Shown here one piece after another: positions 39,250-44,863 of a stretch of 45,608 nucleotides of DNA. Location of the stretch: NCBI GenBank assembly GCA_017459985.1, contig JAFUBX010000018.1, positions 1 through 45,608 of the forward strand, written 5' to 3'. The notes under the pieces were generated by a model that saw only the letters and a list, made by a program, of their open reading frames with translations, was not told where the DNA came from and searched no databases. Origin of the DNA: Parasporobacterium sp. Lineage in GTDB: Bacteria > Bacillota > Clostridia > Lachnospirales > Lachnospiraceae. Both the position numbers and the translations under genes were made by a program. Each line of letters begins with the position of its first letter. Within the stretch, counting starts at the first letter, position 1.

Positions 39250-39693
39250 TCAATCCTCCATATAAACAGAAAACGGCAGTCTGAAGTTTTCTGTAGGAGT
39301 CCTCTCCCGTCTGGTTTCCGTATCATTCTCCGGAGAATCTGACGGTTCATCAACGAATGCATGGAACACTTTGCCTTCATCCATAAGACGTGCAATGGTT
39401 TCATTCTTAAATCTTGTAATATACCCAAGTTCCCTATCATCCTTTGTAACGACGCTGATCGCCCATTTGTCATGTTCATTATTCGGTTCCCGGAACAGAT
39501 TTAATTCTGTGCCGGGTGTAAGGGAATTCAGCAGATTGCGGCCATCTTCGGTATTATCGTCGATATGGTATTCGATCCCGGCAATTGCTGTTTTCAGTAC
39601 AAGGATGGAACGGCTTTTCTGACGGAATGCATTACGATCATAGAATCCTGATTTTAAAGGCTGCCCCTGCTGCTGGATCCGGACATCAGACAT
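39250..39693 (-). CDS. HIRAN-domain protein, last gene of the CRISPR-linked run
   Basis: 147 residues. HIRAN signature at about 45-110: AGIEYHIDD, LNLFREPNNEHDKWAISVVT, ELGYITRFKNETIARLMDEG. In eukaryotic HLTF this domain binds DNA 3' ends; bacterial stand-alone HIRAN proteins are thought to recognise damaged or stalled DNA. No catalytic domain. The start overlaps the preceding gene by 8 bases, so it is translationally coupled. The 195 bp downstream (39055-39249) show no clear terminator. Confidence 0.85.
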   Translation of the reverse strand: MSDVRIQQQGQPLKSGFYDRNAFRQKSRSILVLKTAIAGIEYHIDDNTEDGRNLLNSLTPGTELNLFREPNNEHDKWAISVVTKDDRELGYITRFKNETIARLMDEGKVFHAFVDEPSDSPENDTETRRERTPTENFRLPFSVYMED

Positions 39694-40591
39694 GTTCTTT
39701 TTCCTCCGTCAATTCCGCAATTTTCTTTTCCAACCGGTCTTTTTCTTCTTCTGCCTGTTTTCCCCGAACCCTCAGCTCCGCCAGATATTCCTGGATTTTC
39801 GCTGAATCATTGATCAGGTCACGGGCGTTAAATGGAAATCCTGCCTGGATATCTTCAATCTGATCCTCCAGATACTTGCGTTCCTCCTCATATGTCTGCA
39901 GGGTATCCAGAACAACCTGATCCTCTTCTAATGGAAGAAAACAGGAATACAATTTCTTAGCAAGTTTATAATCCGTCGCGAGCACATCAGCCATCGTTCT
40001 GTAGCCTGCCCGCTGTTCGTGTGCGGATTCTTCCCTGGTATTGAATGCAACTTCAAGCTCCATATTGCCGCTATTCTGAAACAGCATCTCATAGACGAGT
40101 TTCATGGCTTCCTTATCCTGCAGTTTATATGCTTCTAATGCTTTCTGATACAGTTCTTTCTGGGTATCCGTAATATCCGGATTCAGCTCAGGATGGAACA
40201 TGTTGATGATCTCACGGTACTGCCGCTGAATATCTTTTTCCTCCTGTTCTGAGAGCTGCGGAAGTTCATTCAGGGTCAGATCAGCATGTTCCAACTCTGA
40301 GATCTTCTCCTGTTTTTCCGTTTCCAACTGCTGTTCTATCGCTTCCAGATCCACCGTTTCCCGCCGGTTCAGGGCTGACTGGATCATTTCTGTTTTTCTT
40401 CTGAGCATGACAACGTCCAGCTCTGCTTGCAATACGCCTTCCTCAGTTGTTCCGATCAATTCCATATACTTTTTGCGGAGAGGAGGTGCTTCTACATACA
40501 GCAGATGATCTTTTTTCTCATATAACCCGAGAAGCGCCCTCCTGCCGGATTCAACTTCCCGCTGCAGCCAATGATAGAAGGTATGTCTCAT
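39686..40591 (-). CDS. J-like coiled-coil protein
   Basis: 301 residues. Charged coiled-coil segments at about 35-110 and 230-301. Between them QYREIINMFHPELNPD (about 124-139), then a KELYQKALEAYK helix, resembles the HPD loop and third helix of a J-domain, with HPE in place of HPD. Overlaps its upstream neighbour (AAA+) by 4 bases (ATGA) and its downstream one by 8. A co-chaperone-like adaptor for the AAA+ protein is an inference. I do not recognise a named family. Confidence 0.75.
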   Translation of the reverse strand: MRHTFYHWLQREVESGRRALLGLYEKKDHLLYVEAPPLRKKYMELIGTTEEGVLQAELDVVMLRRKTEMIQSALNRRETVDLEAIEQQLETEKQEKISELEHADLTLNELPQLSEQEEKDIQRQYREIINMFHPELNPDITDTQKELYQKALEAYKLQDKEAMKLVYEMLFQNSGNMELEVAFNTREESAHEQRAGYRTMADVLATDYKLAKKLYSCFLPLEEDQVVLDTLQTYEEERKYLEDQIEDIQAGFPFNARDLINDSAKIQEYLAELRVRGKQAEEEKDRLEKKIAELTEEKEHV

Positions 40592-42162
40592 TTATTGCCA
40601 CCTCCGATCGCTGCTTTAATATCATCAATCGTGATATTCTGCAGGTCCGCATCTGAGATGTCGGAAAGCACTGCGATCCTGTCTGCCTGGGCATTAATGG
40701 ATTTTTCAAAAAGATTACGGGCAGTTCTCGCATTTCCAAAATGTTCATTCCGGCATTCATACATCCTCCTGAATTCTGTTTCCAGCAACGTCGCTGCATC
40801 CTGCACCAGATGATATCCGTTTTTGTCACAAAACCGCTGAAAAATGGCCAGCAGTTCCTCTCCCGTATAATCAGGATATTCAAAATACTTGCTGAACCGG
40901 GAGGATAATCCCGGATTGGAATCAATGAATTTGTGCATCAATTCCGTATAACCTGCAACGATCACTACAAGTTCATCCCTATGGTCTTCCATTGCTTTCA
41001 GGATCGTTTCGATTGCTTCTTTCCCATAACTGTCCTGCTCATCTCCTGCCAGGGAATATGCCTCATCAATGAACAGCACTCCGCCCATCGCCTGCTGGAT
41101 CACTTTCTGCGTTTTGATCGCTGTCTGCCCAAGATATCCTGCAACCAACGCGCTCCGATCCGTTTCTACCAATTGCCCCTGGGGCAGGATCCCCATATGG
41201 TAATACAGTTTTGCAACAAGTCTTGCCACCGTAGTCTTTCCGGTGCCGGGATTTCCTGTAAAAACGAGATGATAGGAAATCGTGGGTACTTTCATCCCCC
41301 GCTGTTCCCGGATCCGTGTAACCTTGATAAAATTCATCAGGCTGTGGACATCCTTCTTGACATTTTCCAATCCTACCAGGCTGTCCAGTTCCGCGAGAAG
41401 ACTTTCCATGGTCTCATCACTGTTTTTCCGGGGATGAGTGACAACAGGTTCTTCTGCCTGTGGTGTTTGGATATCTGCATTTTCCTCCATTGTTTTGTCC
41501 ATCGGAGCACCTGGCTGAGCATCTGCATTCAGATTGATTGTGATATTAACAGGAGAAGAATCTCCGGCAGGCGGGGGCATCTCTTCTCTCTCCGTTTTTG
41601 CCGGAATCGTCTTCCTGCTTTGATTGGCTTCCTTCACAAGCTCATCGTTTTGGAGATAGCTGCCTTCGTTTAATTCTGTAATATATGACCGATACTCAGG
41701 TAACACAAGATCTTTCTTTCCATTTGCCATGGCATAATTCATTAACCCATTGAGGATTCCAGTCATGGCGTTTGCTTCCTCGATTGTAAAATCCCCATTG
41801 ATCAATGCGGAGGCTGCCAGAAGACTGGTCAGTTTATCCAGGGTTTCCGAAGTAAGGCTGCTGTTTGCGGACCCGTCCTGTTCCACAATCTTTACAAAGA
41901 AATCCGGAACCATGAGTTTCCGTTCTTCGTCTCCGCAACATCCAAGCGCAGTAACGACCTGCTCGATGGTACAAATTTTTCCTGAAATTACAGACAACAG
42001 ATTGGCATAATCCGTGGAATACAGAAGATTGGCTGCCCATATTTTCAGCGTTGCTGCAAAATAGTAATTCATTACTTCTTCCGGATTGATTTCCGGATCA
42101 TGCTCCTTCAGAAAAGTACAAAAGCTGTCATATTCTGTTTTTAAATTTTCAAATTTGTCCAT
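40588..42162 (-). CDS. CbbX/SpoVK-type AAA+ ATPase
   Basis: 524 residues with ribosome site GGAGAG about 10 nt upstream. N-terminal helical region (1-160), possibly TerB-like (INGDFTIEEANAMTGILNGL); a variable linker (165-250); then the AAA+ core. Core motifs: LVGLENVKKDV, Walker A GNPGTGKTT (303-311), pore-type GYLGQTAIK, Walker B GVLFIDEAYSLAG (361 on), sensor VVIVAGY, Arg-finger region NPGLSSRF. Relatives include the rubisco activase CbbX and SpoVK; these remodel protein targets. No Rubisco or sporulation genes are nearby. 22 bp after csm6, so likely in the same transcript. Confidence 0.92.
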   Translation of the reverse strand: MDKFENLKTEYDSFCTFLKEHDPEINPEEVMNYYFAATLKIWAANLLYSTDYANLLSVISGKICTIEQVVTALGCCGDEERKLMVPDFFVKIVEQDGSANSSLTSETLDKLTSLLAASALINGDFTIEEANAMTGILNGLMNYAMANGKKDLVLPEYRSYITELNEGSYLQNDELVKEANQSRKTIPAKTEREEMPPPAGDSSPVNITINLNADAQPGAPMDKTMEENADIQTPQAEEPVVTHPRKNSDETMESLLAELDSLVGLENVKKDVHSLMNFIKVTRIREQRGMKVPTISYHLVFTGNPGTGKTTVARLVAKLYYHMGILPQGQLVETDRSALVAGYLGQTAIKTQKVIQQAMGGVLFIDEAYSLAGDEQDSYGKEAIETILKAMEDHRDELVVIVAGYTELMHKFIDSNPGLSSRFSKYFEYPDYTGEELLAIFQRFCDKNGYHLVQDAATLLETEFRRMYECRNEHFGNARTARNLFEKSINAQADRIAVLSDISDADLQNITIDDIKAAIGGGNK

Positions 42163-43855: not shown

Positions 43856-43870
43856 TTTATATCCCACAAA

Positions 43871-44863
43871 TTATCTGATTACAACAGGATGATAGAAATC
43901 CGCATTCTGGCTTTCTATCGCCTGAACCAGACAGTTTACCTGCAGATCCATTGCTCTTCGAAAATTTACACGATAATTCACATAGTCAAGATAGCTGACA
44001 TCAGTACGTAATTTTTGTTCCAGTTTATTAATAAAAACAGTCATTCCGGCTTTAGTTAAGATAATGCCATCTTCTTCAAGAAAATGTTCCGGCAATATCT
44101 CATGCCCATTTGCAAGACTCATTGCCAATGAGTCTATTATTACCGCACGCCACTCTTCCATCAGATCACTTCCCAACGTCGGATGGTTTTCATGATCTTT
44201 ATGGATAAAACCAAAATATGGATTCAGGCCTTTGCTCTCAATTTTACCATAGATCTCATTCAGCAGAATGGAATATCCAAGACTCAGCATGGAATTAAAT
44301 TTGTCCTGCGGCGGTCTTCTTGTCCTTCCATGGAAACTAAATTCTTTATCTACGAGTTTCTCAAGGGCTTGAAAATAATTTCTGGCTGCAATTCCTTCGT
44401 ATCCTGAGATCTGTTCAATTGTCCTGCATCTGTCCAGTTTTTCAGCATAATAATGCATTTTACTGCGTTCTTCATCAACATTAATTCCGGTGGTTCTCTG
44501 ATATCTTCTCAGAATCACTTCCTGATTTCTTATTTTGGCTTTCATGATTCTACATCCAAGCCGAACAGCAAACTCTGTTTCATATAATGCCGCCTGTTTC
44601 CTTTGTCTCATGGCATTAATATGACCTGTTGAAATCAACCTGCCAAAGTATCTGCCATTTTTCGAATAATAAGAAACGGGAATCCCTCTTTTCAGACATT
44701 CCTCCGTACATTGGGTGGTCATCTGGGATTTTGAAAATATACTAATCCCTTCTAATGTCTCAACCGGAACCATTTTGCACATGTCATCCTTGCAGGTCAC
44801 CCTGACATAGTTTTCTGAAAAAGAGATAATGCTGCCATGTTCTAAAACGTACAAATAGCTCAT
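43871..44863 (-). CDS. cas1: CRISPR integrase Cas1
   Basis: 330 residues with AAAGGA about 9 nt upstream. N-terminal beta domain, then helical catalytic domain. Metal ligands: Glu156 in GYEGIAARNYF, His221 in FGFIHKDHENHPTL, Glu236 in SDLMEEWR. Complete by length. Inserts new spacers at the leader end. The start is about 28 bp from the last degenerate repeat with no clear promoter between, so it may depend on readthrough from the array. Confidence 0.96.
   Translation of the reverse strand: MSYLYVLEHGSIISFSENYVRVTCKDDMCKMVPVETLEGISIFSKSQMTTQCTEECLKRGIPVSYYSKNGRYFGRLISTGHINAMRQRKQAALYETEFAVRLGCRIMKAKIRNQEVILRRYQRTTGINVDEERSKMHYYAEKLDRCRTIEQISGYEGIAARNYFQALEKLVDKEFSFHGRTRRPPQDKFNSMLSLGYSILLNEIYGKIESKGLNPYFGFIHKDHENHPTLGSDLMEEWRAVIIDSLAMSLANGHEILPEHFLEEDGIILTKAGMTVFINKLEQKLRTDVSYLDYVNYRVNFRRAMDLQVNCLVQAIESQNADFYHPVVIR

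Follow-up and report, generated by a model that had tools for sequence, protein, structure and literature searches.

AAA+ proteins of the CbbX, SpoVK and EccA group are dedicated chaperones that carry varied N-terminal domains (PMC10659427). The HIRAN domain of HLTF binds forks as well as single-stranded DNA; an NN90,91AA mutant of it bound none of the DNA tested (PMC4666394). For HIRAN proteins, the nearest published link to our subject is the HIRAN-HipA-diDNase clusters, for which defence roles have been predicted (PMC11706625). Here we describe a set of three genes, encoding an AAA+ ATPase, a J-like protein and a stand-alone HIRAN protein (the trio), in Parasporobacterium sp. (GCA_017459985.1, contig JAFUBX010000018.1, positions 1-45,608; this whole stretch of 45,608 nucleotides is referred to as the window). 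On the minus strand the order is cas1-cas2-csm6-AAA+-J-like-HIRAN, with gaps of 3, 15 and 22 bp followed by overlaps of 4 and 8 bp. All six open reading frames were confirmed with this exact spacing, which bears out the co-directional gene set described in an earlier note on this DNA.

The AAA+/J-like/HIRAN cassette was found in the same order in seven copies, together with two remnants. As the same order and tight coupling are seen at other loci, the arrangement is not due to chance. Immune genes adjoin four of the seven trios, CRISPR-Cas genes three and csm6 of a type III-A system two. The trio is real, rare, apparently mobile and not specific to type III immunity, and it is probably associated with defence. 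Antiviral defence in bacteria may thus have in this cassette a component that has not been described. It is quite possible, if somewhat short of probable, that the trio spreads horizontally as an accessory cassette associated with defence, of single origin and not dedicated to type III systems, with a proposed role in sensing and remodelling at DNA. The earlier note had proposed an accessory complex serving type III immunity or spacer acquisition. Of this, a separately conserved cassette stands, its link to defence recurs at other loci, and its two csm6-linked copies lie in different families. The note was aware of no described system with the trio; in our search of the open literature, among the matches listed, no description of the cassette was recognised (subscription papers and supplements lay outside the search). 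A word search of the main text of two broad type III surveys found no DnaJ, AAA or HIRAN domain (in one of the two, HIRAN occurred as an author name).

Contig C12 and the window most likely hold the two halves of a single type III-A locus. The break in the assembly falls within the CRISPR array: its 35-base repeat is found at the ends of both C12 and C79 (genome G000), and variant copies lie outermost (at most 1 mismatch in 12 copies on C12, at most 2 in 9 copies on C79). The C12 end carries cas10/csm1 (TIGR02578, 757 bits) as well as cas6, csm2, csm3, csm4 and csm5, all of which exceed their NCBIfam cut-offs. Because the same repeat occurs on both contig ends and C12 holds cas6 and csm1-csm5, the window is read as the far half of a split locus; cas10/csm1, csm2-csm5, cas6 and an array, as expected of type III-A, are all found across both ends, with the contig join inferred. 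The window csm6 encodes the CARF and HEPN domains and the R-X4-6-H motif of Csm6. The G+C content is 0.45-0.46 in the trio, 0.35-0.39 in cas1, cas2 and csm6, and 0.51 in window positions 1-38000.

A dedicated type III role would have the trio work with Csm6 and Cas10, by disposing of activated Csm6 or clearing DNA cut by Cas10, or with Cas1-Cas2 in spacer acquisition. This is suggested by the position directly beside csm6 in two families and in different arrangements: the trio lies downstream of csm6 in the window and upstream of it in G842 (L238). The two copies belong to different sub-groups (pairwise identity 52% for AAA+ and 34% for J), and since they also lie on opposite sides of csm6, the two associations are taken as independent. 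Both loci have the Cas10 GGDD and Csm6 HEPN-type motifs, and no terminator-like site was found in the 22 bp between csm6 and AAA+ of the window on their strand. However, no trio gene was found by profile or tblastn at 20 other csm6 loci of the order sample. These 20 come from 22 other csm6 genes above the cut-off (G169 and G382 were left out), and as a contig end lies within 0.5 kb of csm6 at five of them (downstream in L120 and L121, upstream in L107, L109 and L116), absence there is one-sided. In the same sample, the 30 genomes with the J-like family and the 22 with csm6 had 2 in common (Fisher p 0.52). Moreover, five of the seven trios were not seen at type III loci, the three trio proteins gave no match to a cyclic-oligoadenylate sensor (CARF/SAVED) in Pfam, NCBIfam or PADLOC, and in G842 the HIRAN gene and csm6 are separated by about 180 bp with a promoter-like stretch, as judged by eye. 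Absence from these 20 loci and a trio-type HIRAN in one of 397 genomes of the family indicate that the trio is not a type III gene, and a conserved type III gene was rejected as an explanation. With further copies at BREX/Cas12a genes, a methylase set and core genes (G064), the earlier claim of a specific role in spacer acquisition or type III immunity was not supported, and we regard such a role as improbable.

Near type III-A genes we found two of the seven trios versus none of 46 non-trio loci of the J family (Fisher p 0.015). The fetched stretches of those 46 loci gave no match to Cas1, Cas2, Cas6 or Csm1-6, and tblastn of 43 of them, Cas12a included, gave no cas match. A rough placement model, which ignores the clustering of immune genes, gave p 0.0036 for one of six trios lying within 10 kb of csm6 by chance. 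Chance proximity to csm6 as a full account was rejected because of the second csm6 neighbour in G842, although the numbers are still small. The earlier note had reasoned that a trio lying mostly away from CRISPR or defence loci would make the link to csm6 accidental; the seven trios are not distributed in this way, whereas the J-like/HIRAN pair without AAA+ appears to be.

The sets of genomes searched overlap with one another and do not amount to a random census. Three loci came from a scan of the genome_contigs collection: L002 and L003, each a complete trio, and a distant AAA; a viral-contig scan added the trio L248. With the trio-type HIRAN profile, 3 of 14 genomes of the window's genus matched, one being trio-type (the window's own genome). 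There were 39 matches in the 397 genomes of its family, trio-type in the window's genome alone. Six matches were obtained in the G064 family (48 genomes; trio-type in G064 and, as a decayed copy, in G267), two in the G777 family (20 genomes; G777 and a 35-residue remnant in G785) and 12 in the G778 family (300 genomes; trio-type in G778, G876 and G842). In the decayed copy (L199, 10158-11301), the N-terminal part of AAA+ is fused directly to the end of HIRAN and the intervening genes are lost. Of 392 genomes of the order, 30 had a match to the J-like profile, which in 13 was no stronger than E 1e-4. With a broader J profile the count was 339 of 391 genomes in the class, E being below 1e-20 in 30; among the matches listed, the others mostly covered the J region only, in frames of about DnaJ length. 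A first viral scan gave no relative with the J-like alignment, and with HIRAN 14 distant loci that had no J-like neighbour by profile scan. By tblastn, J-like had no match in plasmids and phages, HIRAN had two distant matches in plasmids, and AAA+ matched 270 plasmid and 11 phage records, none reaching 80% query coverage.

The J-like protein of the window has a J-type stretch within long helices, with HPE and not HPD. As a single sequence it matches Pfam DnaJ weakly (E 8.4e-4, below the cut-off), while a 20-row profile of its family matches solved DnaJ proteins (best E 5.2e-7). Foldseek with the J-like model gave no match at E up to 0.001. HPD is absent from all seven AAA-linked J proteins (HPE, HPA, HPA, QPS, HPE, HPQ and HPS), and is kept in all 39 J proteins that adjoin HIRAN without AAA+ (33 in an alignment of 47 proteins and six more from L057, L062, L200, L201, L241 and L242). 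Within the alignment, HPD was present in 33/33 proteins with HIRAN but no AAA+, in 0/4 with AAA+ and in 1/10 without HIRAN, the single case lying at a contig end. This pattern lends weight to the adaptor role that the earlier note had suggested: among J proteins with a HIRAN neighbour, HPD is absent only where AAA+ is present. HPD loss also occurs outside the AAA-linked clade, since HPE is found in seven J proteins without HIRAN from a single family. The HIRAN-less J-like relatives with HPE in L174-L180, all from one family, each lie near two genes of about 580 amino acids (aa), and the pair in L178 encodes ABC transporters (Pfam). It has been shown that changing D to N or H to Q in HPD abolishes stimulation of Hsp70 (PMC13254874). 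The pattern of HPD loss offers a natural experiment on how a J protein may exchange Hsp70 for an AAA+ protein as its motor, which could be addressed at the bench whatever the physiological role.

A J-derived subunit and an AAA+ protein beside immune genes could also form a guard or abortive system, with a pseudo-J protein that detects unfolded protein or the diversion of chaperones caused by phage and an AAA+ protein that triggers dormancy. Sensing that depends on DnaJ exists in E. coli, where DnaJ is required for bNACHT25 (PMC12169576). However, bNACHT25 needs the contact between DnaJ and DnaK (PMC12169576), which is expected to be lost in the trio J protein, and in Pfam, NCBIfam and PADLOC none of the three trio proteins matched a family of toxic effectors. 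We consider a guard system very improbable.

The AAA+ protein has the features of the SpoVK/CbbX/EccA clade (AAA plus the clade lid, GY at sensor 1 and a sensor-2 arginine) but fails the curated cut-offs for SpoVK, CbbX or EccA proper: its best NCBIfam matches were spore_V_K (290.5 against 423 bits), CbbX (239.7 against 459) and EccA (250.8 against 467). Its solved relatives are CbbX and EccA1, and the best Foldseek match of its structure model was CbbX 3syk, with 42% identity over the AAA module. An N-terminal region (about 1-184), predicted with low confidence to be all-helical, is followed by a linker to about 250 and the AAA module at about 256-515. In an alignment of six copies, with motif positions set by eye and motif names following PMC10659427 in part, Walker A, Walker B, GY (G404-Y405) and a sensor-2-like R482 are invariant, so an active ATPase is expected. 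The asparagine that in this clade lies four residues before the first arginine finger (PMC10659427) was not placed with certainty. By analogy to CbbX, SpoVK and EccA, the ATPase would act on one dedicated client. A TerB-like N-terminal domain, considered because of one motif, was not supported: with E values up to 0.1 allowed, TerB was absent from the Pfam matches. The viral-collection contig L250 encodes a 758-aa protein (1564-3840) that has a related N-terminal region joined to an AAA+ module; no J-like or HIRAN match was found near it.

The HIRAN family profile matches the HIRAN domain of HLTF and the solved lp_0118 (3k2y). One asparagine is invariant in 19 HIRAN homologues and falls in the stretch aligned to NN90,91 of HLTF. 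The window protein also matches the PADLOC candidate PDC-M03B (E 4.3e-13), covering part of a longer profile; the HIRAN-HipA clusters are not assumed to be identical with PDC-M03B.

Each of the immune systems adjoining trios has at least one mode of action on DNA, and these DNA-targeting neighbours, read across four cases, fit a DNA-end sensor. In the defence-associated reading, a CbbX/SpoVK-type AAA+ protein with its own N-terminal region would have joined a J-like/HIRAN pair once, in this direction, and the J protein would have lost the HPD needed to drive Hsp70. HIRAN could then bind single-stranded DNA, ends or fork-like structures arising from phage replication or from neighbouring DNA-targeting immune systems. 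The pseudo-J protein might bridge HIRAN and the N-terminal region of AAA+ rather than call DnaK, and the AAA+ ring might pull on or refold one dedicated bound protein, blocking it if it is a phage replication protein or activating it if it is a host partner. Beside csm6 this would add a layer of immunity, probably by read-through from the cas1-cas2-csm6 transcript. That the trio is, in full, an undescribed antiviral module of this kind, with a HIRAN sensor of DNA ends or forks, a J protein turned AAA+ adaptor and a dedicated CbbX-type motor, shared as an add-on that moves between defence islands (type III-A, Cas12a, BREX, methylase system), is a speculative and on the whole unlikely proposal. 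If the trio is antiviral, defence mechanisms that draw on chaperone-like components would gain a protein-remodelling machine, and its shared position next to unrelated immune systems would suggest that DNA ends or forks serve as a common signal there.

The trio and the commoner J-like/HIRAN pair are of common descent. HIRAN adjoins 37 of the 47 compared J proteins, 33 without and four with AAA+ (HIRAN in L052, L059 and L168 and J in L057 and L062 were located by tblastn). The pair is often preceded by a Sel1-like gene, in surroundings that appear ordinary by eye. The Sel1-like/J-like/HIRAN set recurs in L055-L059, L061-L065, L168, L170, L172 and L200, in the window's family and others, with HPD intact where read. 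By Pfam a Sel1 repeat is present in L065 and not in L063, and L055 and L059 match only a fragment of the Sel1-like gene. Downstream of brxL and a NifS/DndA-type cysteine desulfurase, Sel1-like/J/HIRAN of L059 takes the same slot as AAA+/J/HIRAN of L002 (8626-12889).

Such surroundings raise the alternative of a DNA-maintenance or stress cassette (fork or protein quality control, repair of the cell's own DNA) that rides in variable regions with incidental immune neighbours. The J/HIRAN pair lies mostly among ordinary-looking genes (tyrS/YbaK-like, RelA-like, RecD2-like and others, by eye), the G064 trio lies near mfd, and the decayed G267 copy is found between SbcC/SbcD-like and UvrD/PD-(D/E)XK (AddA-like) genes, with another SpoVK-like ATPase gene nearby. 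The HIRAN domain of HLTF, moreover, acts at forks (PMC4666394). On the other hand, immune genes touch four of the seven trios, csm6 in two, and the patchy spread (1/397 in the family) is unlike that of housekeeping genes. A housekeeping role was judged less likely for the AAA+ version and likely for much of the AAA-less pair; for the trio, we regard the maintenance explanation as possible but rather unlikely.

Several observations weigh against a defence-associated cassette with an AAA+-coupled J protein. Only seven trio copies are known, and without the discovery locus the comparison becomes 1/6 trios versus 0/46 loci (Fisher p 0.115, not significant). At the G064 locus no immune gene was recognised by eye in the stretches read (PADLOC covered two of its neighbours), and in G778 and G876 the contig ends soon after HIRAN. 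The AAA-less pair is not free of defence genes either: 41 PADLOC families (E up to 1e-15) had matches among 115 near neighbours of 30 pair loci. Each of the 25 families listed matched one member, and they include RT, SoFic, AbiD, HNH and uncharacterised candidates. In G134 (L059, 1-10832), Sel1-like/J/HIRAN stands at the tail of a PglZ/BrxL locus. The structure models are poor (mean pLDDT 60 for J-like and 56 for AAA+). In a tree with four copies the AAA-linked J proteins group as a single clade (support 100/99), so the loss of HPD is a single evolutionary change retained in seven copies, not seven events, and a Fisher test on the HPD pattern gives it too much weight. Finally, HPE is tolerated in DjlB and DjlC, which work with HscC (PMC13254874), so a lost contact with Hsp70 is not proved for the window copy, which by analogy may still serve a divergent Hsp70.

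Table 1. Features of the cas-trio region of the window and the seven trio copies (domain assignments from Pfam, NCBIfam and PADLOC)
Feature	Position or locus	Strand	Evidence or surroundings
cas1	43871..44863	-	PF01867; best PADLOC profile Cas1_IIIa
cas2	43541..43867	-	PF09827
csm6 (CARF-HEPN RNase)	42185..43525	-	TIGR02672, 456.5 bits (cut-off 150); HEPN-type motif RNIAAH
csm6/AAA+ gap, 22 bp	42163..42184	-	GGAG ribosome-binding-like sequence upstream of AAA+ start; no terminator-like site
AAA+ ATPase, SpoVK/CbbX/EccA clade, 524 aa	40588..42162	-	AAA and AAA_lid_6 matches
J-like protein, 301 aa, HPE replacing HPD, long helical flanks	39686..40591	-	profile and motif
stand-alone HIRAN-domain protein, 147 aa	39250..39693	-	PF08797, 55.2 bits (cut-off 24.7)
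CRISPR array, from about 44958 past the window end	44958..45608		repeat shared with the end of contig C12
trio 1	window		22 bp after csm6, III-A locus
trio 2	G842, L238		directly upstream of csm6, same strand, gap of about 180 bp; then csm1 to csm5 (NCBIfam)
trio 3	G777, L002		between BrxC/PglZ/BrxL/DndA (BrxP further out) and Cas12a + Cas4; gene set presumably BREX type 4
trio 4	L248 (viral-collection contig)		adjoins Vsr, then two unassigned ORFs (open reading frames), then C5 methylase; AAA+ cut by contig start
trio 5	G064, L046		among core genes, near mfd and a pth-like gene
trio 6	G778, L003		DUF559 gene and Exo_endo_phos gene within 3 kb; contig end about 1.4 kb past HIRAN
trio 7	G876, L237		HTH regulator gene upstream; contig end about 0.17 kb past HIRAN

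The G842 locus also has degenerate CRISPR-like repeats and, at the contig end, a cas6-like open reading frame (PF10040, 27.3 bits against a cut-off of 25; no NCBIfam match). In G778, no gene was recognised as immune in about 10 kb on one side of the trio. At the far end of the window locus, overlapping genes for a Gp49-like (RelE-type) toxin and an HTH antitoxin (38369-39054, plus strand) are convergent with the HIRAN gene. Further away, a 41-bp unit is repeated in tandem within 33701-33941, with three copies at 33819-33941 directly preceded by a related two-copy repeat, and a tRNA-Lys gene (33415-33488) lies shortly before it. An Rfam scan at gathering scores matched tRNA only.

Compared with known systems, the trio shares the setting of type III-A CRISPR-Cas with Csm6, as the window is half of such a locus and the other half is placed by inference on C12; it differs in being absent at the 20 other csm6 loci and in showing no match to a cyclic-oligoadenylate sensor. 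Its ATPase has general AAA similarity to IetA, the AAA ATPase of the IetAS defence system (33.5 bits), but this score is far under the IetA cut-off of 510. With the SpoVK/CbbX/EccA clade the AAA module aligns over its full length, and the logic of a dedicated client and a variable N-terminal domain would be shared (PMC10659427); the window protein stands apart through scores below three equivalog cut-offs, its own helical N-terminal region and the linkage to J-like and HIRAN genes. The HIRAN-HipA(-diDNase) clusters resemble the trio in that a HIRAN protein occurs in clusters with a predicted defence role (PMC11706625), whereas no HipA match was found among eight proteins scanned around the window trio. 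Pam16, a pseudo-J protein, is alike in its J-type fold, its replaced HPD and its place in a motor system (PMC13254874). Pam16, however, works beside Pam18 and Hsp70, while the J-like protein of the window is bacterial and its gene adjoins those for HIRAN and a CbbX-type AAA+ protein.

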